Shown: positions 47,520 through 64,000 of the stretch, in pieces | How positions within the stretch are numbered: the stretch's first letter is position 1 | Layout of the letters: each line of letters starts with the position of its first letter | Assembly: GCF_003628755.1 (NCBI RefSeq) | Contig: NZ_CP029256.1 | Span: forward strand, 701,585-765,584 | Origin: Christensenella minuta | Lineage (GTDB): Bacteria; Bacillota; Clostridia; Christensenellales; Christensenellaceae | DNA length: 64,000 nt | Direction: 5' to 3' | The notes under the pieces: generated by a model | What the model was told of the DNA's origin: nothing | The model's input: the letters and a program-made list of their open reading frames with translations, nothing else | The model's database searches: none | Made by a program: the position numbers and the translations under genes

Positions 47520-47529
47520 ATTTTAGGGA

Positions 47530-47559
47530 TTGACAAATGCCTGACTATTGTGTTATTAA
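47530..47559 (+). promoter_or_regulatory. Promoter of the first sugar operon
   Basis: A perfect TTGACA (47530-47535) is followed after 17 or 18 bases by TTATTA/TATTAA (47553-47559). The following leader, up to 47680, is very AT-rich and could hold an operator, but I see no clear palindrome. Confidence 0.6.
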
Positions 47560-47680
47560 TATAAATATAGTTTATAATTTTTTTGTAGATACTTCTTTTC
47601 AAACTGAAAAAAACTAACTCAACGGCGAGATAATTGAATAAAGAAAAATTCCTTGTAGCTTACAGATGAAAGGAGAGAAT

Positions 47681-48517
47681 ATGTTTTATCCGAACATTGT
47701 GGATGTAATTCCCGAAAAAAATATTGTATGTATTTCACCGCATTATGATGACTTTCTGTTTTTCTTGGGCGGTTATCTTCTCGAACTAAAGGAACACGGT
47801 CTTCTTGGAAGCAAGAAGCTGACTAATATCAGCACTTTTTCGCGCTCGAATTATCAGGAACGCGATTCGGAGGGCAATAAGGACGCAAGCCTCAAGCGCG
47901 TGCAATACGCGACCGGCATTCGCCTGATCGAGGATTTGGAATGCCTTGACGCGCTGCTTGGACCTCATAATTATTTCTACCGTGTCATGGGCGAAGAAGA
48001 AAGCCAGGTGCGGGGGAAGATATTGAACGAGGGAGAAGGCGAGATGGAGATGGCCTTTGGAAGCTATGAAAACATGGACGGTCACGACCGGGAGATTCTC
48101 GCCCGCATGAAAGATGCGGCCATGGACTATATGGCCCAGGAGGATACGGCCGTTATTTTGCCGCTTTCCATGAAAGGGCATATCGATCATTTCATTGTCC
48201 GCGAAGCGGGGCTTACCGCCGCCAAAGAGGCCGGAAGCTCGCGGCGCGCAGCTGTGTATTTTGCCGAAGATAAACCCTATGCGGGAATGATGGACGGTGT
48301 TGAGAGCAAAATAAACGATGATTTTATAGCCGCGAACGGTCTTGCAGATAAGGCCTTTGCGCACCATCCCGAGGAAATACTGGAGCTTGCGTTCAAACAT
48401 TACCCCAGCCAGGTGGATGAAGTCTACAATACAGGGATACGCGATCGCAGCCGCTATTTAAAGGAGCTGTATAATGTATCCTGTGAATGCGACAGAATAT
48501 ATCAATATAATAAATAA
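47681..48517 (+). CDS. PIG-L/LmbE-family deacetylase 1
   Basis: This is a 278-residue zinc hydrolase of the family that removes N-acetyl groups from GlcNAc-containing molecules. The metal motif P-H-Y-D-D is at residues 20-24 and the distal H-I-D-H near 167-170. No signal peptide is visible, so it acts in the cytosol on an imported compound. ATG 47681 follows AAGGAGAG. It is 13 bases upstream of the NagB-like gene. Its exact substrate is unknown. Confidence 0.86.
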   Translation: MFYPNIVDVIPEKNIVCISPHYDDFLFFLGGYLLELKEHGLLGSKKLTNISTFSRSNYQERDSEGNKDASLKRVQYATGIRLIEDLECLDALLGPHNYFYRVMGEEESQVRGKILNEGEGEMEMAFGSYENMDGHDREILARMKDAAMDYMAQEDTAVILPLSMKGHIDHFIVREAGLTAAKEAGSSRRAAVYFAEDKPYAGMMDGVESKINDDFIAANGLADKAFAHHPEEILELAFKHYPSQVDEVYNTGIRDRSRYLKELYNVSCECDRIYQYNK

Positions 48518-48530
48518 ACGGAGGTAATTG

Positions 48531-49490
48531 ATGATGGAACTGAACATGATGAGCACAATCAAGGGCTCGATGCTGGAAAATTTCTTCCCGGCAGGATGGG
48601 ACTTGCAGAAAATAGAAGATTGCTGTGCGACTCCCCCGGAACATGCACTTGACCGGATGCCGCACTGGAACAAGGATTTTAGGACAGAAGAATGTGAAGA
48701 CGTTGCAAGTTTCAATATGCAAATGGGATATGAAATCGCAAAGCAGATCAAGCGCGTGCGCGACGCGGGCAAACAGATGGCGCTCATTCTGTCGGTAGGA
48801 CCAATGGGGATGTATCAGTGGGCGGTCTACTTCCTCAGGGATTGGAACTGTAGCTGTGATCACGTGTGGGGCTTTAATATGGATGAATGGTCGGACGCGG
48901 AAGGAAATACGCTTCCCTCCGACGACCCTGGAGCGTTCCAGAACGCTATGGAACAGAATTTTTACGGGCCTTTGGGCGACCTGACGGTTCCACCAAGCCA
49001 ACGTAATTTTGCAACGAAAGATAATCTACCGCTGTATCCTGAAAAAATTCAGAAAATTAAAGACGGCGGCGGCGAGTTGATTACTATTTACGGTATTGGG
49101 CGGTGTTTCCACATCGCGTTTTGGGAACCGCATTTCGCGGCAGACTATGCGAATGTCGAGGAATGGAAAAAGGCGCCTTACCGTGTAGGAGCAAAATTGC
49201 ATCCCATGACGATCGAACAGAATTCGCTTATCAGCTTCAAAAGCCGCGTTACGCTGATCCCGGCGCGTGCGAATACCATCGGCCCCGGCCTGTTCCTGAA
49301 TTCCGATTATTGCATCGGCGGCGTGGACGGTGCGGTCGGCCGCGGTATGAACTGGCAGGGAATGACATTTTTCGTTACGCTCAAGTATGGCCCGGATATG
49401 TGGGTTCCCTCAAGCTGGATGCCGACTCTGCCCGGGAAATTCTTTGTTGTCAAAGAGCTGGAAGGGCCGCTCGTTCCCGAGTGCAACTGA
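48531..49490 (+). CDS. NagB-like (glucosamine-6-phosphate deaminase fold) protein 1
   Basis: This is a 319-residue protein resembling glucosamine-6-phosphate deaminase. F-N-M-D-E-W matches the F-N-M-D-E-Y catalytic Asp. G-I-G-R-C-F-H-I-A-F-W-E-P matches G-V-G-x-D-G-H-I-A-F-N-E-P, so the triad His and Glu remain while the triad Asp is Cys. The G-G-T-P-type phosphate loop is replaced by V-G-P-M-G. The reaction is therefore probably not the standard one and the substrate may lack a phosphate. GGAGG lies six bases before ATG 48531. A paralogue starts at 63901. Confidence 0.72.
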   Translation: MMELNMMSTIKGSMLENFFPAGWDLQKIEDCCATPPEHALDRMPHWNKDFRTEECEDVASFNMQMGYEIAKQIKRVRDAGKQMALILSVGPMGMYQWAVYFLRDWNCSCDHVWGFNMDEWSDAEGNTLPSDDPGAFQNAMEQNFYGPLGDLTVPPSQRNFATKDNLPLYPEKIQKIKDGGGELITIYGIGRCFHIAFWEPHFAADYANVEEWKKAPYRVGAKLHPMTIEQNSLISFKSRVTLIPARANTIGPGLFLNSDYCIGGVDGAVGRGMNWQGMTFFVTLKYGPDMWVPSSWMPTLPGKFFVVKELEGPLVPECN

Positions 49491-49524
49491 CCAGTAATTA
49501 AAATAACCTCTCTTAGTTCAAAGG

Positions 49525-49629
49525 CCGGCGGGAATGCGCGGATACTGAGCATTCCCGGTTCGCCGGCAGGGTCTGTGACTTTTATTATTGTTCACAGGCG
49601 TCCTGTATTTGCTAGTTTCTAAAGGACGC
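49525..49629 (+). promoter_or_regulatory. Three consecutive hairpins after the NagB-like gene 1
   Basis: CCGGCG/CGCCGG (49525-49530, 49561-49566) encloses GGAATGC/GCATTCC (49531-49537, 49549-49555). Next comes CTGTGA/TCACAG (49573-49578, 49592-49597), then GCGTCCT/AGGACGC (49598-49604, 49623-49629). None has a classic T tail immediately after. They may protect the upstream mRNA or form a structured leader. Confidence 0.55.
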
Positions 49630-49643
49630 CGGATATCGTATTT

Positions 49644-49673
49644 TTGCACTCTTTTTGGCCATATCAATATAAA
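49644..49673 (+). promoter_or_regulatory. Possible promoter before the flavoenzyme gene
   Basis: TTGCAC (49644-49649) and TATAAA (49668-49673) have an 18-base spacer, 56 bases before the ATG. Confidence 0.4.
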
Positions 49674-49729
49674 AAATCTAAAGCGTAAAAACCTAAATAC
49701 GAACGATTAAGAATGAAGGGGATTTTCAA

Positions 49730-51850
49730 ATGAAAGAGTATTACAAGCACTTGTTTGAACCAATCGAGATCGGGAATATGGTGGTACCCAACCGCATTTG
49801 CCATGTCCCGACGGATATCGGTGCGTCTTACTCCAATGGGGAGGCAAGCGAAAGGGACGTATATCACCATTCCCAGCTTGCAAAAGGTGGCACGGGGCTT
49901 ATTATTGTAGGCGCGACTACTCCGGAAATGGAAACGGGGAAATCGACCGTTAACTGCACGGCGGCAGATGGAGACCAGTTGATTCCCGGCCTGAACAGGC
50001 TGGCACAGGGAATCCAGCGTTATGGCGCAAAAGCCTGCATCCAGCTCGAGCATCCGGGACGGCAGGGGGCTATGCCCCGCTATCCCGTATATTCCGCCAG
50101 CGATATGGTCATGAGCATGCCGTGGTCCCAAAGCCATGAAATACTTTATGAAAACGAAGAGGCGAAAGGCAAAGCGGTCCGCCAGATGAGCACAGAGGAT
50201 ATTATTAACCTTGTCGGGAAATTCTCGGATGCGGCATGGCGGTGCCAAGCGGCCGGATTTGATTCGGTAGGCCTGCACGCGGCACATGGCTATTTAATTT
50301 CACAATTCATGAGTCCTTACCTCAACAGGAGGACGGACCGGTATGGCGGCAGCCTAGAAAACAGGATGCGTTTCGTTCTTGAAATCATTTCTTCGATCCA
50401 GCGGAAATGCGGCCATGAATTCCCGATCATCGTGCGTTATTCGGCAGACGAATGGGTAGCGGGCGGCCGGGAGCTTGACGAGTCCATCAAGGTGGCGCAG
50501 ATATTGCAGGCGGCAGGCGTTGCCGCACTTGACGTCAGCCAGTGCATACAGGAAAGCCCCGGCGCGGGTTTTGATCCGATGTACTATCCCGAGGGATGGA
50601 CGACTTATGCGTCTGAAGCCATTAAAAAGGTCGTGGATATTCCGGTTATCATCAGCCACTCGCTTCGTACTCCTGCATTTTGCGACAAGATTATCGGGGA
50701 AGGCTTGACGGACATGGTGGGGCTTTCGCGTCAGCTGCTGTGCGACCCATATTGGCCGGTAAAAGCAAAATATGGAAAAGACGATGATATCCGTAAGTGT
50801 ATTTCCTGTCTGACAGGGTGCTGGCAGGAATCGCACATGGCAAAACGCCAGGTTACCTGTGCGATCAATCCGGCCATGGGTGATGAAAGCTTCGCAAAGA
50901 TGAAAAAAGCGGATAAACCGTGCAGCATCGCGGTGGTCGGCGGCGGCCCTGCCGGTATGGAGGCAGCGCGGCATGCGGCGCTGCGCGGGCACGAAGTTAC
51001 CATTTTTGAACGGAAAGGCGAATTGGGCGGCGCTATTCTGGGAGACTGCCTGGTGCAGGGAAAAGAAAAAATGAAATGGTATGCCGACTGGATTCGGAAT
51101 CAGCTTCGCAAGCTTGACAATGTAAAAGTAGTGCTGAACCATACGCCGTCTGTTGAAGAACTCAAAAAATTCGATATTGTGGCGAATGCGACGGGTGCGT
51201 CTTCCTATGTTCCTCCTGTATTTGGTAATGCAGAAGCGGTCGTGCCATTTGAAGAAGTACTGGCCTGTCCCAAGGTAAACTGCGAATTCAATCCGGGCGG
51301 ACGCAAAATGGCCAAAGTGGGCGAGAAAGTCCTGGTATGGGGGGATCATTATGCAGCCGCGGACACCGCGCAATTCCTGGCTTCTATTGGTAAAGAAGTT
51401 ACCGTTGTAACGGAACAGCCGCAATTTGCAGCCAAGGTAGAAACGATTCATATGTATGTAGCGCGTAAACGCTTCAATCTGGAGGAGGCAGAAGCCCTTA
51501 CTCCGCATCCGTATAAGCACAAGGTTGAAATCCTTGAGGGCGCGACCGTGCTAGAAGTTGGAAACGGGAAAGTAATTGTGCAGGACAAAGAATTCAGCAG
51601 AATTGAGCTTGCGGTTGATACGGTTGTTACATGCCATGTAAAACCCAATGTGGAATTTCTCGAAGAAGCGATTGAAGCTGGATTGCAGATTGTCAATATC
51701 GGCGACTCTGTACGGCCGCGGAACTTACATGCCGCGGTAATCGAGGGTGCGGTATTCGGCAAGAATGTAGATGGCGATGCGCTTACTAATCCAAATAATG
51801 CGCCAATTAACGATCTGCCGATCGACGTTTTAGAACAGCTGACAAGATAA
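49730..51850 (+). CDS. OYE/2,4-dienoyl-CoA reductase-like FMN-FeS-FAD enzyme
   Basis: The 706-residue protein has an N-terminal old-yellow-enzyme TIM barrel (about 1-370; H-A-A-H-G-Y-L near 184, R-T-D-R-Y-G-G-S-L-E-N-R near 203). A [4Fe-4S] cluster motif C-I-S-C-x-x-G-C ... C-A-I-N-P spans about 358-380. A C-terminal FAD/NAD(P) domain has V-G-G-G-P-A-G-M-E near 403. The layout is that of FadH and BaiCD-type reductases, which reduce conjugated C=C bonds or cleave C-N bonds (trimethylamine dehydrogenase group). Its place inside a sugar operon is unusual and hints at an unsaturated, keto or amino intermediate. Confidence 0.88.
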   Translation: MKEYYKHLFEPIEIGNMVVPNRICHVPTDIGASYSNGEASERDVYHHSQLAKGGTGLIIVGATTPEMETGKSTVNCTAADGDQLIPGLNRLAQGIQRYGAKACIQLEHPGRQGAMPRYPVYSASDMVMSMPWSQSHEILYENEEAKGKAVRQMSTEDIINLVGKFSDAAWRCQAAGFDSVGLHAAHGYLISQFMSPYLNRRTDRYGGSLENRMRFVLEIISSIQRKCGHEFPIIVRYSADEWVAGGRELDESIKVAQILQAAGVAALDVSQCIQESPGAGFDPMYYPEGWTTYASEAIKKVVDIPVIISHSLRTPAFCDKIIGEGLTDMVGLSRQLLCDPYWPVKAKYGKDDDIRKCISCLTGCWQESHMAKRQVTCAINPAMGDESFAKMKKADKPCSIAVVGGGPAGMEAARHAALRGHEVTIFERKGELGGAILGDCLVQGKEKMKWYADWIRNQLRKLDNVKVVLNHTPSVEELKKFDIVANATGASSYVPPVFGNAEAVVPFEEVLACPKVNCEFNPGGRKMAKVGEKVLVWGDHYAAADTAQFLASIGKEVTVVTEQPQFAAKVETIHMYVARKRFNLEEAEALTPHPYKHKVEILEGATVLEVGNGKVIVQDKEFSRIELAVDTVVTCHVKPNVEFLEEAIEAGLQIVNIGDSVRPRNLHAAVIEGAVFGKNVDGDALTNPNNAPINDLPIDVLEQLTR

Positions 51851-51885
51851 AACGGCATATGGTATAAATTGGGAATCAGGGTATT

Positions 51886-51910
51886 CCGCGCAGCGGAAAA
51901 TGCTGCGCGG
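51886..51910 (+). promoter_or_regulatory. Hairpin before the first binding-protein gene
   Basis: CCGCGCAGC (51886-51894) pairs perfectly with GCTGCGCGG (51902-51910). Outer GGGT/ACCC bases can extend it. There is no T tail, so mRNA stabilisation is more likely than termination. Confidence 0.5.
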
Positions 51911-51996
51911 GACACCCGGTTTGATTGGTGTACGAAAAAACGGAATTTTAAGCGGGAATGCTTGAAATAGAAAATGAAATAATAAGGAGGAATATT

Positions 51997-53055
51997 ATGA
52001 TGAAAAAGTCTGGAATCCTGGCACTGGTTGCCGTACTATTGGTAGCGGTACTTGTATTTGCTGCCTGCTCTCCGGCTACACCGGCAGCAGAATCATCGGC
52101 CCCGGCTGACGATGCTTCCCCGGCATCTTCCGGCGAAGCATCCGCGTCTGCCGCTGACAGCGGAAAAAAATTGAAGTTTGGTGAAATTGCACACGATCGT
52201 GCTTTGGAATGGGTAAACTACGGTGTTCAGAACTTTGAATATACCTGTGAGCAGCTGGGCGTAGAACCTGTGGTAATTGATGCGCAGAACGATATGGAAA
52301 AAGTACTCGCCGGCATGGAAGACCTGCTCTCCCAAGATGTAGATGCGGTTTCGGTATACTCCTTCAGCCCGGATCTAGATGCGCGTGTGGCGCAGATGGC
52401 ACGTGATGCCGGCATTCCGATTGTGTTTGAAAACGCGGTTCCGGCCGACTCTGTGGACCGTGACGCCGTGACCTGCTGCACCTATTATGATATCGGCTAT
52501 GCGGCGGCTAAAATGATCGGCGACAAATACCCCGGCTCTAAATTCGTATATATTATGGGACAGCCGGGAATGAACATTACGGAGCCGTACAATGATGGTA
52601 TTGCGGCGGCGATCGCGGATGGCGCGGATACGGAAATGGTAGAGTCGGCTCCTACAAACTGGACGGCCGAAGAAGGCATGAACGCTACGCAGAATTTGAT
52701 CCAGTCCGGAAAAGAATTTGATGTGATTTTTGCCAACAACGAGCAAATTGCGCAGGGCGTTGTAAAGGCGCTGGATGCAGCAGGCCTCAAAGACAAGATT
52801 CCGATCATCGCGACAGGCGGAAGCCCGCTGGGGGTGGAAATGCTCGAATCGGGAGACCTCTATGGAACAATCGCGGCCCCGACGTCGTATATGGGCGCGC
52901 TTTCGGCAAAGAAGCTCTATGACCTTACGAACGGGAAAGCTGTAGAAGAGATGACGTATCTGCCGCTGCTTCCCGCAACTAAGGAAGAGATCGACCAGAT
53001 TATTCCGTGGACCCCGGGCGCGGAGGTTATCGAAGCGATTGGCGGTCTTGACTGA
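51997..53055 (+). CDS. Sugar ABC transporter substrate-binding lipoprotein 1 (RbsB-like)
   Basis: This is a 352-residue extracytoplasmic lipoprotein. A signal peptide with lipobox V-F-A-A-C anchors it. A Ser/Ala/Pro-rich linker (to about residue 55) precedes a type-I periplasmic-binding fold of the Peripla_BP_4/ribose group, with I-I-A-T-G-G-S-P near 270. It starts at ATG 51997 behind AAGGAGG. It is followed by ATPase and permease genes and is similar in layout to the protein at 59439. The ligand is unknown but a pentose, hexose or derivative is expected. Confidence 0.9.
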   Translation: MMKKSGILALVAVLLVAVLVFAACSPATPAAESSAPADDASPASSGEASASAADSGKKLKFGEIAHDRALEWVNYGVQNFEYTCEQLGVEPVVIDAQNDMEKVLAGMEDLLSQDVDAVSVYSFSPDLDARVAQMARDAGIPIVFENAVPADSVDRDAVTCCTYYDIGYAAAKMIGDKYPGSKFVYIMGQPGMNITEPYNDGIAAAIADGADTEMVESAPTNWTAEEGMNATQNLIQSGKEFDVIFANNEQIAQGVVKALDAAGLKDKIPIIATGGSPLGVEMLESGDLYGTIAAPTSYMGALSAKKLYDLTNGKAVEEMTYLPLLPATKEEIDQIIPWTPGAEVIEAIGGLD

Positions 53056-53090
53056 CAAAATGACTGATTGACATGAAGGATAGGGGATAA

Positions 53091-53110
53091 CGGGCAGGGT
53101 GTCCTGCCCG
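53091..53110 (+). promoter_or_regulatory. Intercistronic hairpin between binding-protein and ATPase genes, cassette 1
   Basis: CGGGCAGG (53091-53098) pairs with CCTGCCCG (53103-53110) around a 4-base loop, with GGGG/CCCC able to extend the stem. No T run follows. The matching hairpin in cassette 2 supports a role in keeping the lipoprotein mRNA more abundant than the rest. Confidence 0.6.
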
Positions 53111-53137
53111 TACCCCATCTTTGGTAAAGGAGAAGCC

Positions 53138-54637
53138 ATGGTGGAAAAGACGGGTAATTATTTGATAGAGGCAAAAGGCATTTCCAAAATATTCGGCGGG
53201 ACCCGGGTGTTGGATAATGTTTCGATCACTCTTAAGCCCGGCGAAATACACAGCCTATGCGGCGAAAACGGCGCGGGCAAATCTACGCTTATCAAAGTTC
53301 TGTCCGGCGCATACAAGCCGGAAGAGGGAGTAGTCGCCATCGGCGGGAAGGAATATCCGCATTTAACGCCGCTTATTGCGAAAAGGAAGGGCGTAGAGGT
53401 AATTCATCAGGAAATCATTCTGGTTCCGCAGCTTACGGTAGCAGAGAATATTTATACGGATGTGCCATATAGGACGGCAGGCTTTTTTTCCATGAAAAAA
53501 ACCTGCGAGGCCGCGAAACAACTGATGGACGAGATCGGGATTCAGCTTGATCCTTATGAAACGGTGGAACGCCTGAGCGCCGCGGATCAACAATTTGTCA
53601 AAATATTAAAAGCGCTTGCGCCAAGTCCCAAAGTGCTTATTATGGACGAACCGACCGCGATGTTCAACATGAAGGATACCGATATGGTTCTCGACCTTGT
53701 GAAGAATATTAGTCGGAAGGGGATCGGTATTATTTATATTTCACACCATTTAAAGGAAGTGGCGAAGATTGCCGATACGATCAGTGTATTGCGCGACGGG
53801 AAGCTGATTTCCACTTATCATGCCAAGGATGGCGCGGTAAATATGGAACAGGTGACCTGCGATATGGTTGGACGCCCTGTCGACATGTTTTATAAACGGG
53901 AAAAATCGAACACTGGCGAAGTGTTTTTTGAAGTAAAAGGACTGAAACTGAAGGATGAAGATGCACCCATTGACCTGTCCCTGAGAAAAGGAGAAATACT
54001 GGGCCTCACCGGTATGGTGGGATCTGGACGGACGGAGATTATACGGGCAATATACGGACTTGACCAGCGCGCTGCGGGTGAAATCAAAAAAGATGGGAAA
54101 CCGCTTCATATCAATAGCCCTCACGACTCGATCCAAAATGGAATCGGGTATGTCAGCGAAGATCGGCAGAAATCCGGGTTGGTGCTGCCGCTTTCCGTGC
54201 TGCGCAACCTGACTTTTTTGAAGCTTCCCCTGAAAAATGGGTTTATCAGTACCAAAAAGGAGATGGATATTTCCGAAGAAATGATCCGAACGTTGGATAT
54301 TAAAACACCGAGCATGTTTAAGGAAACGGGGATGCTTTCGGGTGGCAACCAGCAAAAGGTGATTATCGGAAAATGGCTGCATAAGGGCTTTGATATTCTG
54401 ATTCTTGACGAACCTACCAAGGGGATAGACGTCAATGCGAAATTTGAAATTTACAAATTGCTGCACGATTTGACAAAGCAGGGGAAATCACTTTTGGTCG
54501 TTTCCTCCGACATGCCGGAAGTCATCTCGCTTTGCGACCGTGTGATGGTCGTGCGGAACGGTAAAATTGTCGGCGAATTCGCGGGCGGCGAAATCACGGA
54601 AGAAAACGTTATTAAATCTGCATTAGAGGTGAAGTGA
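53138..54637 (+). CDS. Sugar ABC transporter double ATPase 1 (RbsA-like)
   Basis: This 499-residue cytosolic protein has two fused ABC domains. The first has Walker A G-E-N-G-A-G-K-S-T near 41 and Walker B L-I-M-D-E-P-T near 178. The second has a degenerate Walker A (V-G-S-G-R-T) near 295, signature S-G-G-N-Q-Q-K near 407 and L-I-L-D-E-P-T-K-G-I. This asymmetric pattern is normal for RbsA/MglA. ATG 53138 follows AAAGGAG. Confidence 0.94.
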   Translation: MVEKTGNYLIEAKGISKIFGGTRVLDNVSITLKPGEIHSLCGENGAGKSTLIKVLSGAYKPEEGVVAIGGKEYPHLTPLIAKRKGVEVIHQEIILVPQLTVAENIYTDVPYRTAGFFSMKKTCEAAKQLMDEIGIQLDPYETVERLSAADQQFVKILKALAPSPKVLIMDEPTAMFNMKDTDMVLDLVKNISRKGIGIIYISHHLKEVAKIADTISVLRDGKLISTYHAKDGAVNMEQVTCDMVGRPVDMFYKREKSNTGEVFFEVKGLKLKDEDAPIDLSLRKGEILGLTGMVGSGRTEIIRAIYGLDQRAAGEIKKDGKPLHINSPHDSIQNGIGYVSEDRQKSGLVLPLSVLRNLTFLKLPLKNGFISTKKEMDISEEMIRTLDIKTPSMFKETGMLSGGNQQKVIIGKWLHKGFDILILDEPTKGIDVNAKFEIYKLLHDLTKQGKSLLVVSSDMPEVISLCDRVMVVRNGKIVGEFAGGEITEENVIKSALEVK

Positions 54638-54638
54638 A

Positions 54639-55586
54639 GTGAAAGAGAAAACTTTGAGAACCAGGGCCAAAATTGGAAATGAAATGATTTTTCTGCCGGT
54701 CGTTATAATCGCCCTGTGTGTAATATCCGGGCTGATTAATCCGCGTTTTTTCACAGTGGCGAATTTTCTGACGATATTCCAGCAGGTAGCGGTATTAGGA
54801 ATCCTTACAAGCGCTATGCTGATGCTGCTCGTTATGGGGGCGATCGATCTTTCCTACGGCGCCCTGATCGGTCTGTGCAGCGTTATACTGTGCAACCTTA
54901 TCAGCGTGCAGGGGGTAAATCCGTGGCTCGCGCTCCTGATTATGTTTGCCACGGCCCTCGGCGCGGGAGCATTGAACGGCCTGATTATCACAAAATTTAA
55001 ATGTGAACCGCTGATTGTGACCATAGGTACAAGTTATATCTACCTTGGTTTCGCGCAGGTAATATCGCAAGGGACTTATCAATCCATCGGGGGTGCGTTT
55101 CCGTTTATTGGAACGGGAAAAATTGGCTTGATTCCAATGCCGATGATTGTACTTGTGATCGTTATGCTCTTGATGTTCGTTTTCCTGCGGTATACGCCTT
55201 TTGGCCGCAAGCTGCATATTATCGGCGGTAATTCCGAGGTGGCGTTCCTTTCCGGGATTCCGGTAAAGGCATATAAGCTGCTCGCGTTTGTTCTGGGCGG
55301 CGGTATCTGTGGTTTGGCGGCCTTCGTTCTTACCTCGCGCATTGGCTCGGCCTTGCCCACCAACGGATCGGGATATGAATTAAACGCCCTCGCGGCGGCT
55401 ATTATTGGCGGCGCGTCTTTTTCCGGGGCGAGGGGAACTGTCCTCGGTGCATTTTTCGGTGTGCTGCTTCTTGGCATTGTGAATAATGCACTCAATATTT
55501 TGGGAGTGGATGCATTTTATCAAACGGTTGTTTTGGGTGTTATAATCGTGATAGCGGTTATATTTAGTAATATCAAGAGCAGATAA
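54639..55586 (+). CDS. Sugar ABC transporter permease 1 (RbsC-like)
   Basis: This is a 315-residue membrane permease with eight to ten hydrophobic helices. It has the family pattern G-A-I-D-L-S-Y-G near 66 and the C-terminal L-N-A-L-A-A-A-I-I-G-G segment near 249. Starting at GTG 54639, two bases after the ATPase stop, it is translationally coupled. Only one permease is encoded, so it should work as a homodimer. Confidence 0.93.
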   Translation: MKEKTLRTRAKIGNEMIFLPVVIIALCVISGLINPRFFTVANFLTIFQQVAVLGILTSAMLMLLVMGAIDLSYGALIGLCSVILCNLISVQGVNPWLALLIMFATALGAGALNGLIITKFKCEPLIVTIGTSYIYLGFAQVISQGTYQSIGGAFPFIGTGKIGLIPMPMIVLVIVMLLMFVFLRYTPFGRKLHIIGGNSEVAFLSGIPVKAYKLLAFVLGGGICGLAAFVLTSRIGSALPTNGSGYELNALAAAIIGGASFSGARGTVLGAFFGVLLLGIVNNALNILGVDAFYQTVVLGVIIVIAVIFSNIKSR

Positions 55587-55617
55587 AATATCGAAGTTAT
55601 TATATGAGGTGTCGATT

Positions 55618-56886: not shown

Positions 56887-56918
56887 AAAGACAGGAACGC
56901 CCCTTTTCATCAATCGGC

Positions 56919-56947
56919 TTGACATACTTCGCAGAGCGTGATAGAAT
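56919..56947 (+). promoter_or_regulatory. Promoter of a short transcript upstream of ROK regulator 2
   Basis: Perfect TTGACA (56919-56924) and TAGAAT (56942-56947) are spaced by 17 bases. A terminator begins only 26 bases downstream of the -10, so the predicted RNA is about 50 bases. Confidence 0.65.
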
Positions 56948-56972
56948 CGTTGTAATCAAAGTTGTAGTGAAC

Positions 56973-57004
56973 AAGGGCGTTTACAGAGATGTAAACGCCC
57001 TTTT
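56973..57004 (+). terminator. Terminator or attenuator hairpin upstream of ROK regulator 2
   Basis: A perfect 10-bp core (GGGCGTTTAC with GTAAACGCCC), extended by AA/TT, has a 6-base loop and runs into TTTT. It ends the short transcript from the promoter at 56919. Confidence 0.75.
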
Positions 57005-57162
57005 CGATTGTAATGGCAAAAGATAGATTAATTGCAAAGTGGGATGACTAATCGCGTTGGGAACCTTGAAAATTGAATCAGTCGGGAAAAAGTTCCAAAA
57101 GCACCTCTGTTTTCGCGAACAATATGCAAAAATAAAAAAATTTGCTTTTTGAAAAAAAATAG

Positions 57163-57191
57163 TTGACGGGATGGAAGTTTGGGAGTAATAT
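57163..57191 (+). promoter_or_regulatory. Promoter of ROK regulator 2
   Basis: TTGACG (57163-57168) and TAATAT (57186-57191) have a 17-base spacer. The leader to the ATG at 57281 is AT-rich. Apart from these sites and the short unit above, I see no gene in the 394-base gap 56887-57280. Confidence 0.6.
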
Positions 57192-57280
57192 TAAATCAAT
57201 AAGACAACCCACTTTACTAATTATTCAAAAAGCTACAATTAAAATATTGGACCGTTACTGAGAGCAGCGAGGAAATTCTG

Positions 57281-58540
57281 ATGTTTGTATATGGAGACCA
57301 GGGCACAGCCGATACTGAATTGGTGAACCAGCAACAGCTCAAATCATATCATTTGCGCCAGTTGTTTGATTTGGTGCTTGAAAACAAACGCGTGTCGCGC
57401 ACTTGGCTTGCGCGCTATATGAGACTCAGCACCACCGCTGTTTCTTCCCTGGTTGACGAATTACTTGAAAATGAGGTCCTCGTGTCCGTCGGGCAGGGGG
57501 TATCCAAAACGGCGGGGCGAAAGCCCATCATGCTGGAGGTCAACAGGAACTGGCGCCAAATCGTAACCTTCCGGCTCGACCTTGACGGCATTGAGTATGT
57601 ACTTTACGATATGGTCTGCCAGCCATTGGAAAAGATAAAACGCCGCATTAAGGGAAACGATTATGTCACTGAAATGGATGCGATCCTCAAACAATCCGAA
57701 GCACTGAGCCGGGAGAATGTTATCTCCATGTGCGTTGCTGTTCCGGCGATTGCGGATTGCGGCAGTCAGCGCTTGTTACTGAATATACTTGAGATTGAGG
57801 ATGAAGGGAAATTCCTTGCGGATATGTCCGCGCTTTTCCCCAGGGCCGTCCTTCTGATTGGAAACGACTCCGCTGCTTACGCATATGGAGAAAAAGAATT
57901 TGCCTCGGCAGATGGGATCGAAAATTTAATTTATATCAATTATACGCATGGTATCGGCGCCGGAATTATTATCGATGGCAAGATATTTAATGATACAAAG
58001 CACAACACCGGTGAAATCGGCCATATGTCGATTGATATGAACGGCCCGCAATGCGTTTGTGGCAACCGGGGCTGTCTCGAACGAATGATTAGCATTCCTG
58101 CCATTGTGCGGGAAACAAGACGAAAGATAGACGGCGGAAGCTATTCCATTATTACCGAGCTTTGCGGAAGCGATTTGAGCAGGCTGGATATAGAAATGGT
58201 TATTTATGCGTTTCTTCATGACGATATGATGGTTTGCCAGATCATAAAGGATATGGCGTCCAAGCTGTCTTTCGGGATCCGCAATATCTTCAGCATGTTT
58301 CACCCCCAGGAAGTTGTGATCGGGGGAATCGCCCACAGGTTTGGGGAACGGTTTCTTAAAATGCTGGTCCAATATACGAAGGGATCATCTTATTGGGAAT
58401 CCCTGTATGAGACGAAGATACGCTATACGCAAATACAGGAATTTGGGGCCAACCTGGGAATGGCAAAATATTATCTGGACAGTGTAATGTCGCTTGACAG
58501 AAACGAAGCGGTACAGAAATGCACGATGACTCTATTCTAA
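57281..58540 (+). CDS. ROK-family (NagC-like) transcriptional regulator 2
   Basis: This is a 419-residue regulator with an N-terminal winged helix (about 20-80; L-S-T-T-A-V-S-S-L-V) and a full ROK domain. The zinc cluster C-V-C-G-N-R-G-C-L-E near 264-273 is intact, and G-N-D-S-A-A-Y-A-Y-G-E keeps the ROK Asp near 194. It differs from ROK regulator 1 in both features. It heads the second cassette and probably senses the substrate or its phosphate. Confidence 0.88.
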   Translation: MFVYGDQGTADTELVNQQQLKSYHLRQLFDLVLENKRVSRTWLARYMRLSTTAVSSLVDELLENEVLVSVGQGVSKTAGRKPIMLEVNRNWRQIVTFRLDLDGIEYVLYDMVCQPLEKIKRRIKGNDYVTEMDAILKQSEALSRENVISMCVAVPAIADCGSQRLLLNILEIEDEGKFLADMSALFPRAVLLIGNDSAAYAYGEKEFASADGIENLIYINYTHGIGAGIIIDGKIFNDTKHNTGEIGHMSIDMNGPQCVCGNRGCLERMISIPAIVRETRRKIDGGSYSIITELCGSDLSRLDIEMVIYAFLHDDMMVCQIIKDMASKLSFGIRNIFSMFHPQEVVIGGIAHRFGERFLKMLVQYTKGSSYWESLYETKIRYTQIQEFGANLGMAKYYLDSVMSLDRNEAVQKCTMTLF

Positions 58541-58558
58541 AAAGGAGGAAGGATAAAC

Positions 58559-59386
58559 ATGGACAACAAAATTGCAGTGCTGACCAACACGTATCATGGG
58601 TTTACTCTGGATGAAGCGCTTAATGGTATTGCTGCCGCCGGATTCCGGTATGTAGAGCTTGCGGCCGTACGCGGCTGGACGGAACATGTCTCTTCCGATA
58701 TGACGGATGCGCAGATCGAAGAGGTTAAGCAAAAACTTGCTTCGCTTGGGCTTACGGCAATCGGTATGAGCGGACATTGCAACCTGATGGAAGAGGAGCG
58801 GCTGGATGATTTTCGTAAAAATATTGAGCTCGCCTCCAAATTGGGGTGCCAATACATTATCAGTTCTACCGGAGAGGCCCATTTTGGAAAAGGGGAAAGC
58901 TTTTCCGACGAGATTCTCGCTAAGCATTTGAAAGACCTGGTGCCGGAACTTGAGCGGTATCATATGACAATGGTCCTTGAAGTTCACGGAGAATACGGTA
59001 CAGGCGAATCTCTTTACAAGGTGACAAGAATGGTTGATTCTCCCCATGTGGCCATCAATTATGATACAGCCAATGTCGTCTTTTACGGCGGCAAATATCC
59101 GGAAGAAGAAATAAAATGCTGTGTCGGCGATGTGAAATATGTGCATCTGAAGGATAAAGCCGGGGAGATGAAGGAATGGAACTTTCCGGGAGTTGGCTCC
59201 GGCAATTTGAAATTGAAGAAGTTTATGGAATATATGGATTCGGAAGGGTATACGGGACCATACAGCATTGAGATCGAATATACGGAAGATTTCTGTATGC
59301 GTGATAAAAAGCCCGAGGACCTTGCGGTCGCAAACAAGGCTGTAAAGGATAGTTATGACTATCTGAAATCGATTGGAAGAATCTAA
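58559..59386 (+). CDS. Sugar phosphate isomerase/epimerase-like TIM-barrel protein
   Basis: This 275-residue protein belongs to the xylose-isomerase-like/AP-endonuclease-2 superfamily. The pattern of metal ligands is visible: E in V-L-E-V-H near 140, D-T-A-N near 169, H-L-K-D-K near 198 and a C-terminal E in I-E-I-E near 238. Homologues include IolE, hydroxypyruvate isomerase, tagatose epimerases and 3-keto-glycoside-processing enzymes. AAGGAGGAAGG precedes the ATG. Confidence 0.88.
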   Translation: MDNKIAVLTNTYHGFTLDEALNGIAAAGFRYVELAAVRGWTEHVSSDMTDAQIEEVKQKLASLGLTAIGMSGHCNLMEEERLDDFRKNIELASKLGCQYIISSTGEAHFGKGESFSDEILAKHLKDLVPELERYHMTMVLEVHGEYGTGESLYKVTRMVDSPHVAINYDTANVVFYGGKYPEEEIKCCVGDVKYVHLKDKAGEMKEWNFPGVGSGNLKLKKFMEYMDSEGYTGPYSIEIEYTEDFCMRDKKPEDLAVANKAVKDSYDYLKSIGRI

Positions 59387-59438
59387 AGTTTTGGCAGGAG
59401 TTCTGCTAAATAAACTATATCTAAATGGAGGTACGAAA

Positions 59439-60533
59439 ATGAAAAAAATCTTACTGACAATTCTTGCGGTAGTACTGGTTGTCGCCTTAGGCGCAACGAT
59501 GGTTGGTTGCTCGGCGCCCGCTGCTGAGCCTTCCGAATCCGCTTCCGCTGAAGCGTCCACAGCTCCGGAATCCTCGGCACCTGCTGAAGAATCCCCTGAA
59601 GCCGGTGCGAAAGATAGCTATACATTTGGCTATATCGCATACAACACGGCTGACATCTGGAACGACTATTCCCAGAAAGCTTTCGAGTATGCCGCGTCGC
59701 AGGCTGACGTAAATGTCGAAGTAGTGGCGCTCGATTCCAAAAACAGTGTTGAGGAATCCGTTAAGGCAATGGAATCTCTTATTCAGCAGGAAGTTGACGG
59801 GATCTCAATCTTCCCGATTTCCATCGAGCAGGGCGCACAGCTCGTTAAGATGGCAAATGACGCAGGGATTCCTGTAACGATTGAGAACTTTGAAATGGAT
59901 ACGCCTGATCCGGGCGACTACATTGCGGCTGTTGCATGCAAATATGACGACATCGGATATGCTGCGATCAATTATATCGCAGAACAGAAGCCGGGCGCGA
60001 AAATTTTCTTCTGCGCAGGACAGGAAGGCGCAGGCGTTTACGAGAAGTATCAGGAAGGCGTCGACAAAGCTATGGCTGAACTTGGCGATAAAGTAGAGAT
60101 CGTAGGCACGGAGCATGGCGATTGGGAAACTGAAAAAGCTATGAACGTAACCCAGAACTTCATCCAGAGCGGTGCGGAATTCGATTATATCTTTGCGAAC
60201 AACGGTTTGATGGCCAAAGGCTGCTACCAGGCTCTGAAAGAAGCGGGTATGGAAGATATTCCGATCGTTTCCACCGGTGGGTCTCCGGACGATTATCAGA
60301 TGCTCGTTGACGGTGTCGAAGCTGCAAACATGACGGCTCCGGTTTCCATCCAGGGTATCCAGACGTTCAAGAACCTGTATGACTCCGTTGTATTGGGTCA
60401 GGCTCCTACGGATACGTTCCAGCCTCTGCCGGTTATCGCGGTTTCCGCTGACGACATGGGCAAGTTCATCGCATGGGACGACTATGAAGCGGCTTACAAT
60501 TATGTATATGGCGGCGCAGATATTGCAAAATAA
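59439..60533 (+). CDS. Sugar ABC transporter substrate-binding lipoprotein 2 (RbsB-like)
   Basis: This 364-residue lipoprotein has signal peptide and lipobox M-V-G-C, a Ser/Glu/Ala/Pro-rich linker (about 25-60) and a type-I binding fold with I-V-S-T-G-G-S-P near 278. The overall plan and many motifs match the protein at 51997, so the two importers are paralogous. ATG 59439 follows TGGAGG; the upstream in-frame extension overlaps the preceding gene and lacks a signal peptide. Confidence 0.91.
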   Translation: MKKILLTILAVVLVVALGATMVGCSAPAAEPSESASAEASTAPESSAPAEESPEAGAKDSYTFGYIAYNTADIWNDYSQKAFEYAASQADVNVEVVALDSKNSVEESVKAMESLIQQEVDGISIFPISIEQGAQLVKMANDAGIPVTIENFEMDTPDPGDYIAAVACKYDDIGYAAINYIAEQKPGAKIFFCAGQEGAGVYEKYQEGVDKAMAELGDKVEIVGTEHGDWETEKAMNVTQNFIQSGAEFDYIFANNGLMAKGCYQALKEAGMEDIPIVSTGGSPDDYQMLVDGVEAANMTAPVSIQGIQTFKNLYDSVVLGQAPTDTFQPLPVIAVSADDMGKFIAWDDYEAAYNYVYGGADIAK

Positions 60534-60544
60534 GTAATCTCTCT

Positions 60545-60580
60545 TATTTACCGGGCTTCCGCAAGGGAGCCCGGTAAATA
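60545..60580 (+). promoter_or_regulatory. Intercistronic hairpin between binding-protein and ATPase genes, cassette 2
   Basis: A perfect 13-bp stem (60545-60557 with 60568-60580) has a 10-base loop and an A-rich rather than T-rich tail. It occupies the same place as the hairpin at 53091 but differs in sequence. Confidence 0.65.
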
Positions 60581-60605
60581 AATAAAAGGGAAAAGGTTGT
60601 TGCGT

Positions 60606-62126
60606 ATGAGTATTGATTATGAAAACAATAAGCCTGTCATTGAAATGAAAGACATCATCAAAGAGTTTTCGGGAGTACGCGCCCTCTCCGGTATCACGTT
60701 TGACCTTTACAAAGGCGAAATCCATTGTCTGGTCGGCGAGAACGGTGCGGGAAAAAGTACGCTGATGAAGGTTTTGAGCGGTGCATACAAACCTGATGGG
60801 GGCTCTATTGTTGTTGGAGAGAAGAGTTATAAGACGCTTGATCCCAACCTGTCGCAGGAGCTGGGCATCAATATTGTATATCAGGAAAACGATCTGGTTC
60901 CGACCATGAATGTTGTTGAAAATATTTTTGTCGGAAGTGAAAAGACAAAGAGATTTGGTTTTGTCGATTTTAAGGCGATGTTTCAGGAAACAGAAGCTGA
61001 AATGAAGGACCTGGGGATCGATATCGACCTTAATAAGACGATTGAGAATTTATCTGTTGCCGAACAGCAGTTTGTTAAAATTTTAAAAGCGATTTCTACA
61101 CATCCCAAAATATTGATTATGGACGAGCCGACTTCCATGTTTAATGTGGAAGACGCGGGAAAAGTGCTGGCTCTGGCGCAGACCATTGCCGCGCGGGGAA
61201 TCAGCATCATCTATATTTCCCACTTCCTGAACGAGGTAGTGCAGATCGCAGACCGTATTACGGTGATCCGCGACGGTGCGGTAGTCAGTACGTATTCAAA
61301 CGAGAAAAAGGATATTCCGCTTGAAACCATTACCCGGGATATGGTCGGGCGCCCGGTCGATATGTTCTATACAAAGGAGGAGCATGAGATCGGCGATGTT
61401 ATGTTTGAGGTCAAGGGCCTTAAACTGACAAAGGATTCTCCGGAAATCAGCTTTAATGTCCGCAAAGGAGAGATTCTGGGATTCTCCGGCATGGTCGGTT
61501 CCGGCCGTACGGAGATCATCCGCGCAGTATCGGGTGCGGACAGAAGATACGCCGGAGATATCTACCTGCATGGAAAGAAGCTGGATATCCACAATCCTGC
61601 AGATGGAATCGACGCAGGGATTGCTCATATTACAGAAGACCGCCAGAAGCTCGGCCTGATGCTGGGAGGCTCTGTTTTAGAGAATACCACAATCGTGGGA
61701 CTTCGCAACAAGATTAAGGGCTTTTTTATCAATGTGAAAAAGGAACCGCCGCTGATTGAAGGGATTATCAAGGACCTGAATGTGAAGACTCCGTCCGTGA
61801 TGCAGGAGGTTAAGTACCTTTCGGGCGGCAACCAGCAAAAGGTTGTTCTCGGAAAATGGCTTTTTGCGGATCAGGAAGTTTATATTTTCGATGAACCGAC
61901 CCGCGGAATTGATGTGAATGCCAAGGTTGAATTCTATAAACAGATGTCCAACCTGACGAAACAAGGAAAATGCATTATCATGATCTCTTCGGATATGCCC
62001 GAGCTTATTTCCATGAGTGACAGAGTATTGGTTGTACGAAACGGTGAAATTACCGGGGAACTGCAGAAAGATGAGATTACGGAAGAAGAGATAATCAAGA
62101 GAGCACTGGGGGTAAACAAATCATGA
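60606..62126 (+). CDS. Sugar ABC transporter double ATPase 2 (RbsA-like)
   Basis: This is a 506-residue tandem ABC ATPase. The first domain has G-E-N-G-A-G-K-S-T near 43 and I-L-I-M-D-E-P-T near 178. The second has the degenerate V-G-S-G-R-T near 298 and S-G-G-N-Q-Q-K near 410. It shares the M-V-G-R-P-V-D-M-F-Y element with the ATPase at 53138, supporting common descent. ATG 60606 follows AAAAGG. It overlaps the permease start by four bases. Confidence 0.94.
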   Translation: MSIDYENNKPVIEMKDIIKEFSGVRALSGITFDLYKGEIHCLVGENGAGKSTLMKVLSGAYKPDGGSIVVGEKSYKTLDPNLSQELGINIVYQENDLVPTMNVVENIFVGSEKTKRFGFVDFKAMFQETEAEMKDLGIDIDLNKTIENLSVAEQQFVKILKAISTHPKILIMDEPTSMFNVEDAGKVLALAQTIAARGISIIYISHFLNEVVQIADRITVIRDGAVVSTYSNEKKDIPLETITRDMVGRPVDMFYTKEEHEIGDVMFEVKGLKLTKDSPEISFNVRKGEILGFSGMVGSGRTEIIRAVSGADRRYAGDIYLHGKKLDIHNPADGIDAGIAHITEDRQKLGLMLGGSVLENTTIVGLRNKIKGFFINVKKEPPLIEGIIKDLNVKTPSVMQEVKYLSGGNQQKVVLGKWLFADQEVYIFDEPTRGIDVNAKVEFYKQMSNLTKQGKCIIMISSDMPELISMSDRVLVVRNGEITGELQKDEITEEEIIKRALGVNKS

Positions 62127-63088
62127 GTGAAGAAAGAGCTTTGAAAAAGAAATCCGGCCTTAACTTCAAAGATCAGCGCATATTGCTTGCGTTCGTCATT
62201 GTAGGCATTGTGATTGTTGTTTCAATTATCAATCCGAAATTTATCGAACTGAAGAATATTATCCAGATATTCCAGCAGATTTCCGTTATGGGCATCCTGA
62301 CGATGGCCATGGCGCTGCTTCTAATCAGCGGAGGGATCGACCTTTCTATCGGCAACTTGATGGTCCTTTCCGCGATTTGCATGTCAACGCTGATTGCCAG
62401 CGGAGTTGCGCTTCCGCTCGCTATTCTGGTAGGTATTATCGTAGCGATTGCCTGCGGTGCGCTCAACGGGTTTATCATTGCAAAAAGCAAATGCGTACCG
62501 CTCATCATCTCGCTTGGTACCAGCCAAATCTTTTACGGTATTTCATTGACAATCTCCGGCGGGCGCATCATGAGCTTCAACGGAACGCTTGATGCAATCG
62601 GCAGCACGAAAATTGCGGACGTGTTTCCGGTCATGTTATTTTTCCTGATTGCAATGATCTTCGTGGCCTATGTTCTGCTTAACCGCACAAAATACGGAAG
62701 GCGTTTGGTAGCGATCGGCGGAAACGAAAAGAACGCTTATCTATCGGGTATTAATGTCGATATGCATAAAATCGGGATTTATATTATCAGCGGATTGTTC
62801 TGCGGAGTCGCGGCAATCGTTTTTTCCGCGAGACTTGATTCGGTCAGCGCGAGCGCGGGTTCCGGCTATGAGCTGAATGCGCTTACGGCGGCTATCATCG
62901 GCGGAATTACCTTCGAGGGTGGGCGCGGGACTATTTCCGGCGCGTTCCTCGGCTGCTTGTTCATGGGTGTTGTTACAAACGCAATGAATATCCTGCGGGT
63001 AGAATCCTATACGCAGACGATCGTTACCGGTATCATCATTGTAATTGCAGTTGTACTGAGCAATATCAACAATTTGAGAAAGAACTAA
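62123..63088 (+). CDS. Sugar ABC transporter permease 2 (RbsC-like)
   Basis: This is a 321-residue membrane permease with the pattern S-G-G-I-D-L-S-I-G near 70 and L-N-A-L-T-A-A-I-I-G-G near 252, about eight to ten helices. ATG 62123 overlaps the ATPase stop (ATGA), so the two are coupled. A single permease again implies a homodimer. Confidence 0.93.
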   Translation: MSEERALKKKSGLNFKDQRILLAFVIVGIVIVVSIINPKFIELKNIIQIFQQISVMGILTMAMALLLISGGIDLSIGNLMVLSAICMSTLIASGVALPLAILVGIIVAIACGALNGFIIAKSKCVPLIISLGTSQIFYGISLTISGGRIMSFNGTLDAIGSTKIADVFPVMLFFLIAMIFVAYVLLNRTKYGRRLVAIGGNEKNAYLSGINVDMHKIGIYIISGLFCGVAAIVFSARLDSVSASAGSGYELNALTAAIIGGITFEGGRGTISGAFLGCLFMGVVTNAMNILRVESYTQTIVTGIIIVIAVVLSNINNLRKN

Positions 63089-63109
63089 CGTAAGAGGGAA
63101 GTGAGCAGA

Positions 63110-63841
63110 ATGAATATACTTGCAATTGGTTGTCATCCCGACGATCTTGAGATCGCGTGCGCAGGTACGCTCGCAAAATATGCGAAGCGTGGAGATGAGG
63201 TCATTATGTGCCATGTTGCCAACGGCAATCTGGGACATGCTATCATCATGCCTGACGAGCTGCGCGATATCAGGACAAAAGAAGCGGAAAATGCGGCGAA
63301 AATTATTGGCGCGGAGTCTGTCAATATCGATGTAGGGGATATGAATGTCGAAGCTTCGAACCGTGATACGATTGAAAAGGTTGTCGAGGTGATCCGCTAC
63401 GCGAAACCAGATCTTATTATTACGCATAATCCGGACGATTATATGAGGGACCATATGCAAACGAGCCAGTTGGCATTTCATGCAAGCTTTGGCGCGACGG
63501 TTCCGCATATGAAAGGGGCGATCCTTCCGGGGATCAGCGAAGCGGCGGAAGCCTTTGGCACGATTGTTCCCATTTTCTTTATGGATACTCTTGCAGGCAT
63601 CAACTTTATTCCCACGGAGTACGTAGATGTTACGGATACGATCGAACTGAAGCTTGAAGCGCTTGCTTGCCACGAAAGCCAAATCAAATGGATGCTGGAT
63701 CACGACAAGATCGATTTTATTGATTTTGTACGCACCTGCTCTAAATACAGAGGCCTCCAATGCAGCGTGCCTTATGCAGAGGGATTCCGCCAGTACGCAG
63801 GGTGGCCGCGTTTTGCGACGAAACGCCTGCTGCCGGAATGA
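63110..63841 (+). CDS. PIG-L/LmbE-family deacetylase 2
   Basis: This 243-residue zinc-dependent deacetylase has the motif H-P-D-D-L-E at residues 9-14 and the distal R-D-H near 116. No signal peptide is present. It is nearer to the classical MshB/BshB-type motif than the first PIG-L protein (47681), so the two are not a recent copy. ATG 63110 fits AGAGGG better than the GTG at 63101. It is followed 59 bases later by a second NagB-like gene. Confidence 0.88.
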   Translation: MNILAIGCHPDDLEIACAGTLAKYAKRGDEVIMCHVANGNLGHAIIMPDELRDIRTKEAENAAKIIGAESVNIDVGDMNVEASNRDTIEKVVEVIRYAKPDLIITHNPDDYMRDHMQTSQLAFHASFGATVPHMKGAILPGISEAAEAFGTIVPIFFMDTLAGINFIPTEYVDVTDTIELKLEALACHESQIKWMLDHDKIDFIDFVRTCSKYRGLQCSVPYAEGFRQYAGWPRFATKRLLPE

Positions 63842-63900
63842 GCAAGTTAAATATTATAGTTTACTGTTGCGTTTGACGATACAGCGGTGAGGAGGCCGAG

Positions 63901-64000
63901 ATGGATTTACTATCAACAATCAAGAATTCAAATATGGAGCATTTCTACCCTGCCGGATGGGATCTTAAAAAAATTGACGAGTGCTGTTCGCATAGGCCGG
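63901..64000 (+). CDS. NagB-like protein 2, N-terminal part (cut by the window end)
   Basis: Only 33 codons are visible, starting at ATG behind GAGGAGG. The segment matches the N-terminus of the NagB-like protein at 48531: in a gap-free hand alignment of 26 positions, 17 are identical, including S-T-I-K, P-A-G-W-D-L and C-C. This shows that PIG-L plus NagB-like occurs twice in the island. Catalytic residues lie outside the window. Confidence 0.75.
   Translation, partial: MDLLSTIKNSNMEHFYPAGWDLKKIDECCSHRP

Follow-up and report, generated by a model that had tools for sequence, protein, structure and literature searches.

A 64,000-nucleotide stretch from Christensenella minuta, a member of a gut-dwelling genus (bases 701585-765584 of a genome assembled as one contig, 2,969,292 bases long; hereafter the window), carries two neighbouring gene sets, A and B, in each of which a gene for a PIG-L/LmbE-type deacetylase is followed by a gene for a NagB-like protein. 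The NagB-like family of the window was designated NAGX; this genome holds NAGX-A, NAGX-B, and NAGX-C, and a second branch of the family is referred to as NAGX2. Adjacency of PIG-L and NAGX genes exceeds chance. We give about an even chance to the interpretation that the two sets serve the catabolism of N-acetylated amino sugars or their derivatives, with NAGX acting on a sugar that is not 6-phosphorylated. In its best-supported form, PIG-L would stand in for NagA, and NAGX for NagB, with NAGX working on an amino sugar without phosphate at the usual site; the reaction, step order, and substrate would follow the scheme given below. In textbook amino-sugar use, NagA and then NagB act on 6-phosphates; amino sugars derived from mucin, chitin, and bacterial glycans are major nutrients in the gut.

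Coupling of PIG-L deacetylases with NAGX genes

The metal/base motif of PIG-L/LmbE deacetylases consists of HxDD and a downstream xDH. PIG-L A has HYDD and HIDH and PIG-L B has HPDD, the motif being recognized in both proteins; of 61 PIG-L rows, 58 had HxDD within their first 70 residues. The genome holds three PIG-L genes, all found by the Pfam model PF02585 (43.6 bits for the third, PIG-L C, against a cut-off of 28.2), and each abuts a NagB-fold gene. A preliminary description of the stretch had named two PIG-L deacetylases, each followed by a NagB-like gene; both pairs are present, PIG-L A scoring weakly (Table 1) but with its motifs in place. The pair had also been called repeated. Two pairs do exist, but tandem duplication was ruled out: PIG-L A and PIG-L B gave no BLAST match at E ≤ 1 (PIG-L C matched neither of them at E ≤ 0.01), and NAGX-A and NAGX-B fall in different clades of the tree of 73 NAGX proteins. 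The sole PDB sequence match of PIG-L A was 3dfi, the pseudoaglycone deacetylase Dbv21 (E 8e-5). PIG-L B is kin to BshB and to diacetylchitobiose deacetylases (nearest PDB entries 2ixd and 8bgn); it scored 125.2 bits with the bacillithiol deacetylase BshB1 model TIGR04001, under the cut-off of 182.5.

The comparison covered 78 NAGX loci. Genes were called with a custom script and family labels were taken from profiles on clusters, with main-cluster representatives checked against Pfam; some further labels, among them AKR and XylB, were assigned by eye, and 57 of the 78 runs contained at least one unassigned open reading frame (ORF). One match (L090) gave no anchor. Directly 5' of NAGX, a PIG-L gene was found in 46 loci and a gene of the PIG-L A type in 3, that is, in 49 of the 77 loci whose sequence extended far enough. 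L015 and L044 share a contig, L034 overlaps L079, and L015 and L044 contain close counterparts of sets A and B. Because such raw counts of loci lack independence, clusters at 80% identity were used as well; PIG-L was directly 5' of NAGX in 24 of 36 clusters. Within the co-directional run, PIG-L was present in 54 of 78 loci. The label "PIG-L within three genes" required 9 changes on the tree of 73 NAGX proteins, at least 6 of them forced by well-supported branches, against a mean of 19.8 for shuffled labels. In four genomes of the genus with NAGX, 3/3, 2/3, 3/3, and 2/2 PIG-L genes adjoined a NagB-fold gene; in two without NAGX, the figures were 0/3 and 0/1.

NAGX2 was represented by 11 loci, hand-picked from the matches, two of which had seeded the amidohydrolase profile. 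A NagA-like amidohydrolase gene was located within three genes of NAGX2 in five of them (L113, L114, L139, L143, and L146). What recurs is a deacetylase next to this fold, irrespective of the deacetylase family.

Several loci had features of their own. The third PIG-L run of C. minuta (L152:2392-10671) contains an importer, a ribokinase-like kinase, PIG-L, a classical NagB, a Gfo/Idh/MocA dehydrogenase (Gfo), and a HAD phosphatase; this Gfo and the one in the NAGX-C locus share 56% identity. A larger conserved set, in which PIG-L/NAGX is joined by genes for a DegT aminotransferase and a ceramidase-like protein, was seen in L031, L039, L041, L046, L053, and L089, most of which also have NagA, DapA-like, AKR, SDR, and Gfo genes. 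In L113, a minus-strand gene (4605-6053, 482 residues) is an apparent fusion of an unknown-function domain (cluster c12) with a NAGX2 domain; c12 is a stand-alone gene in several PIG-L/NAGX loci, and the fusion protein had no Pfam match.

Sequence features of the NAGX family

Modelling predicts that NAGX adopts the NagB fold; the in-house pdb_via list of PDB entries covers Foldseek matches only. All 73 members matched the NagB model TIGR00502 at E ≤ 0.01 (best E 1.4e-13), NAGX-A with 41.3 bits against a cut-off of 236.9, and none of the 73 matched any Pfam family at E ≤ 0.01. The 73-row alignment was built without L062, L077, L084, L086, L087, and L090, which are partial or frame-broken matches. 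In Escherichia coli NagB, Asp72, His143 (ring opening), and Glu148 are catalytic, and the TG[GS]TP loop, Arg172, and Lys208 form the phosphate site. The counterparts of the catalytic residues (D119, H195, and E200) were invariant in all 73 NAGX proteins, as was Trp276. The TG[GS]TP loop, Arg172, and Lys208 were missing in NAGX-A, NAGX-B, NAGX-C, and four NAGX2 proteins; these elements are retained in E. coli NagB and in both classical NagBs of this genome. The loss was read in alignment columns 88-94 and 232-240 of the 73 NAGX rows. From this we infer that NAGX has lost phosphate binding. Loss of Asp141 was dropped as evidence, as Bacillus subtilis NagB has Asn there in the alignment. With the catalytic residues kept and the phosphate elements lost, NAGX is proposed to act on a sugar without phosphate at the usual place.

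NagA search and proposed pathway

No NagA was found in this genome, TIGR00221 giving no match at E ≤ 0.001. As a control, 14 of 14 genomes matched this model, seven of them over the cut-off. Among six genomes of the genus, long NagA-like matches occurred in one (G001; 179.9 and 165 bits, under the cut-off of 225.65), and these genes adjoin its NAGX2 genes. G002 and G003 contained NagA-like pieces of about 19 bits only, and G000, G004, and G005 gave no NagA-like match.

The PIG-L/NAGX coupling in most Bacillota loci, the absence of a NagA match, and the loss of the phosphate-site elements together support the route put forward in the preliminary description, namely import, de-N-acetylation, and non-classical handling of the amino sugar; a cyclitol or pseudo-disaccharide, also named there, is a possible substrate. 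All catalytic steps and the substrate class are proposed as follows. The ribose-type ABC importers would take up the compound unphosphorylated, and the PIG-L metalloamidase, taking the role of NagA, would strip off the acetyl group. NAGX would then receive the amino sugar and may isomerise and deaminate it either unphosphorylated or with another group at that position. Gfo dehydrogenases and epimerase-like barrels may tune stereochemistry or oxidation state, and in operon B a BadF/NagK-type kinase and a classical NagB could channel the product into glycolysis.

Several observations weigh against this scheme. No PIG-L gene was directly 5' of 28 of 77 NAGX genes; a 10-row clade (Hydrogenedentota, Verrucomicrobiota, Armatimonadota, KSB1, and others) had none within three genes; and the NAGX-C operon of this genome is without PIG-L. 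The invariant Arg272, or Lys238 (70/73) together with Arg240 (71/73), might bind an anion elsewhere, and for this reason lost phosphate binding is only what we infer. 6-Phosphogluconolactonases score high too, and likeness of fold says nothing of function. The kinase and classical NagB of operon B could handle glucosamine (GlcN) alone, leaving NAGX unexplained, and DegT, found in 15 of 78 runs, could be the true nitrogen-removing step there. Finally, the base composition of the region is ordinary relative to its surroundings, so "island" means a gene cluster only.

Gene content of sets A and B

Every cluster gene lies on the plus strand (Table 1). Set A consists of ROK A, PIG-L A, NAGX-A, a gap of 239 bases with a strong hairpin, an old yellow enzyme (OYE)-type gene, binding protein 1, ATPase 1, permease 1, and Gfo A. 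An alternative start of PIG-L A is possible at the in-frame ATG at 47681. A tRNA-Trp (CCA) gene at 46127-46200 is located immediately 5' of ROK A. The nearest named relative is Christensenella intestinihominis, with 96-97% identity in NAGX-A. Set B is an 11-gene run (ROK, barrel, binding protein, ATPase, permease, PIG-L, NAGX, Gfo, kinase, barrel, and NagB) from 57281 to L002:5072, with gaps of at most 63 bases with the gene starts used; L002 is the locus stretch that continues beyond the window end at 64000 and has its own coordinates. The two ribose-type importers of the preliminary description (51958-55586 and 59433-63088) and its OYE-type flavoenzyme, Gfo/Idh/MocA dehydrogenase, and xylose-isomerase-like barrel were all confirmed by Pfam.

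Table 1. Features of gene sets A and B and of the regions between and after them. Positions are those of the window unless preceded by L002.
Feature	Position	Strand	Evidence
ROK-family regulator A	46305-47519	+	PF00480, 109.9 bits
PIG-L A, divergent PIG-L/LmbE-type deacetylase	47666-48517	+	PF02585, 20.9 bits (under cut-off, 28.2)
NAGX-A, NagB-fold protein without phosphate-site elements	48528-49490	+	
Strong hairpin between NAGX-A and OYE	49524-49568	+	-38.5 kcal/mol over 49500-49600, z -3.66
OYE/2,4-dienoyl-CoA-reductase-type flavoenzyme, 706 aa	49730-51850	+	PF00724, 224.6 bits; PF07992, 53 bits
Substrate-binding protein 1, ribose-type importer	51958-53055	+	PF13407, 140.8 bits
ABC ATPase 1, two ABC stretches, RbsA-like	53099-54637	+	PF00005, 177.9 bits
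Permease 1, RbsC-like	54639-55586	+	PF02653, 128 bits
Gfo/Idh/MocA dehydrogenase A, with Cys-rich stretch	55609-56886	+	PF01408, 63.3 bits
Promoter-like site, then hairpin	56919-56947; 56973-57002	+	z -5.19 over 56950-57030; conserved
ROK-family regulator B, first gene of operon B	57281-58540	+	PF00480, 112.7 bits
Xylose-isomerase-like TIM barrel 1	58559-59386	+	PF01261, 110.5 bits
Substrate-binding protein 2	59433-60533	+	PF13407, 122.4 bits
ABC ATPase 2, RbsA-like	60597-62126	+	PF00005, 159.7 bits
Permease 2, RbsC-like	62123-63088	+	PF02653, 144 bits
PIG-L B deacetylase	63101-63841	+	PF02585, 95.4 bits (cut-off 28.2)
NAGX-B	from 63901, past window end; L002:485-1435	+	
Gfo/Idh/MocA dehydrogenase B	L002:1474-2475	+	directly after NAGX-B
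BadF/BcrA (BadF/NagK-type) kinase	L002:2472-3488	+	PF01869, 83.3 bits (cut-off 31.5)
TIM barrel 2	L002:3499-4338	+	best curated match L-ribulose-5-phosphate 3-epimerase model, under cut-off
Classical NagB	L002:4359-5072	+	PF01182, 74.8 bits (cut-off 27)
Terminator-like hairpin, 15 pairs	L002:5111-5143		after classical NagB

Past 64000, operon B continues with NAGX-B, Gfo, kinase, barrel 2, and classical NagB. The earlier statement that no sugar kinase is visible was therefore an effect of the window edge, the kinase being the second and classical NagB the fourth gene after NAGX-B, and a kinase-free route does not hold for operon B. The nearest solved relatives of this kinase are N-acetylmuramic acid (MurNAc)/N-acetylglucosamine (GlcNAc) kinase, hexokinase, and NAGK; it scored 57.7 bits with the NagK model NF046058 (cut-off 370). 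The classical NagB is borderline for TIGR00502, with 238.2 bits as a protein and 236.0 in the genome search. These genes would also fit ordinary GlcNAc-type salvage in the archaeal order, in which PIG-L B deacetylates GlcNAc or a chitobiose-like sugar, the kinase phosphorylates GlcN, NagB deaminates GlcN 6-phosphate, and NAGX assists, e.g., by ring opening or isomerising. We consider this unlikely. The relatives of the kinase, the diacetylchitobiose deacetylases among the nearest solved relatives of PIG-L B, the operon end with classical NagB, and the absence of a NagA match speak for it; however, kinase-like genes were found in only 13 and NagB in 3 of 78 runs, compared to 54 for PIG-L, and the Gfo dehydrogenase, the barrels, and NAGX would be unaccounted for.

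3' of the hairpin that follows NagB lies a proC-type gene (P5CR_dimer, 126.9 bits). A phage-integrase-family gene (110.2 bits) was located just beyond the cluster end, at L002:6624-7763; an integrase relative also occurs near proC in L034/L037-type loci, so it need not be a cluster member. In L044 of C. intestinihominis, no Gfo was called between NAGX and the kinase, where only short reverse ORFs were seen; a broken gene or a miss by the caller is possible.

Gfo B has as its nearest solved relatives the unnamed dehydrogenase 3ezy, YjhC, and DgpA-type enzymes, with inositol dehydrogenases lower down; those of barrel 2 are MJ1311 and TM_0416, both named uncharacterized. The scores of Gfo A, Gfo B, and Gfo C with the IolG model TIGR04380 (90.8, 169.7, and 153.6 bits) did not reach its cut-off of 355. 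These relatives, together with weak scores to glycoside 3-dehydrogenase families, are in line with a 3-keto route on an amino-sugar glycoside or pseudo-disaccharide: Gfo would oxidise C3, a barrel would eliminate the aglycone, PIG-L would deacetylate the GlcNAc unit, and the resulting enone or keto compound would be handled by OYE or NAGX. Compounds that contain GlcNAc are substrates of PIG-L enzymes, one of which acts on an acetylated aminoglycoside precursor (PMC4101496). Such a route nevertheless seems quite improbable. Gfo B is far under the cut-offs for the BT_2158 and BT_2159 families (NF058561, 40.0 bits against 750; NF058563, 39.1 against 650; Gfo A, 32.9 and 38.6), barrel 2 is closest to L-ribulose-5-phosphate 3-epimerase models, also under cut-off, and OYE is not conserved with the set.

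The OYE-type protein carries a CxxCxxxC motif and a pyridine-nucleotide domain, with 6qkg and 1ps9 as the nearest PDB entries. It was under the curated cut-offs for BaiCD (346.2 vs. 825), bilirubin reductase (359.2 vs. 750), and mycofactocin OYE 2 (391.7 vs. 793). The preliminary description had counted OYE in the pathway and suggested a search for co-occurrence of PIG-L, NagB-like, and OYE genes. The first two proved coupled (49/77), but OYE occurred in only 2 of 78 loci, the window and L015 of C. intestinihominis, and was ruled out as a conserved pathway member; the "OYE" of L064 is a 17-bit match to another flavin adenine dinucleotide enzyme. Other same-run partners among the 78 loci were Gfo (47), DegT aminotransferase (15), sugar kinases (13), barrels (12), and NagB (3). 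Loci with DegT and loci with NagB never coincide in the locus maps, a pattern confounded by kinship.

Regulation and relation of the two sets

Both ROK regulators named in the preliminary description exist, ROK B inside the interval it covered and ROK A just outside it. Each set thus has a ROK gene of its own; ROK A is 34% identical to the ROK protein of the third NAGX locus and 24% to ROK B. Conserved with C. intestinihominis are the stretch between ROK A and PIG-L A (84% over 129 bases) and that before ROK B (73% over 329). The hairpin between NAGX-A and OYE was equalled by 1 of 200 shuffles; it is not followed by a T-run and was not listed by the terminator scan. The hairpin before ROK B lies approximately 25 bases 3' of the promoter-like site, differs from its C. 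intestinihominis counterpart in one pair, both partners of which have changed, and was not among the terminator scan sites; site and hairpin possibly represent an attenuator or a very short RNA. Over 46000-64000, the scans gave 22 terminator-like sites (19.4 in shuffles, standard deviation 4.7) and 44 promoter-like sites (27.7, standard deviation 5.2); over L002 1-6600, 4 terminator-like sites against 6.4 and 10 promoter-like sites against 10.5 in shuffles. With counts near those of shuffles, terminators as a class are no better than chance, and the hairpin after NagB was therefore weighed by its 15 pairs. As to riboswitches, an Rfam gathering search of 45900-64000 yielded tRNA only. No operator shared by sets A and B was found by eye, no computational search being made, so a single regulon is not established; the sets are probably controlled separately, and with a ROK gene and a conserved 5' stretch for each half and a hairpin in between, they need not serve one pathway.

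Two unrelated sugar operons lying side by side would likewise have separate ROK genes, NAGX proteins of different clades, and an intervening hairpin, and each would have its own conserved stretch, 5' of PIG-L A in one and 5' of ROK B in the other. We regard this explanation as very doubtful, however. The PIG-L/NAGX pair is present in both sets, their importers are paralogous (identity 38% for binding proteins, 53% for ATPases, and 44% for permeases), and in L016, which is related to set A, a single run combines importer genes, Gfo, NAGX, a barrel, and a PIG-L of the A type.

Comparison with known systems

Unlike the NagA-NagB pathway, the deacetylase here is PIG-L, NAGX is without the phosphate loop, Arg172, and Lys208, the importer is of the ribose-type ABC class, and Gfo and barrel enzymes are extra. 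The "glucosamine-6-phosphate deaminase-like protein" PRK02122/NF002557, which we take to be a fusion of N-terminal NagB and C-terminal PIG-L/LmbE, also joins the two domains. The match of NAGX-A falls in its N-terminal part (35-179 of 653), and a weak match of 19.9 bits, from the PIG-L next to NAGX in L031, falls in its C-terminal part (370-424); here, however, the genes are separate, and NAGX-A scored 24.8 bits against a cut-off of 384. Gfo/Idh/MocA and AP_endonuc_2 barrels beside ribose-type importers are shared with inositol, levoglucosan, and 3-keto-glycoside catabolism, but PIG-L and NagB-fold genes are added here, and the three Gfo proteins scanned miss all curated cut-offs. Archaeal chitin catabolism uses a PIG-L-type diacetylchitobiose deacetylase (PMC4101496), and PIG-L B is related in sequence to such enzymes; unlike it, the present system is bacterial, NAGX and Gfo are extra, and an exo-glucosaminidase was not noticed in the operons, none having been searched for. 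No published description of this gene set was found among open-licence PubMed Central papers, which is weak evidence of novelty.

More broadly, and tentatively, NAGX and NAGX2 may be two branches of an undescribed NagB-fold family that deaminates or isomerises amino sugars without phosphorylation. Jointly with ribose-type importers, Gfo, and deacetylases of the PIG-L or NagA-like kind, this family would form a widespread non-phosphorylating route for acetylated amino sugars, which C. minuta, with no NagA match in its genome, would use; we consider this possible, on the less probable side. The genus Christensenella attracts research because of its associations with leanness and metabolic health (PMC12692188). 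A conserved pairing of PIG-L, in place of the usual deacetylase, with a NagB-fold partner that has lost the phosphate-site elements suggests that the steps of amino-sugar use run in another order. The proposal also gives a testable function to the NAGX family, which has no Pfam match and is weakly matched by NCBIfam models.

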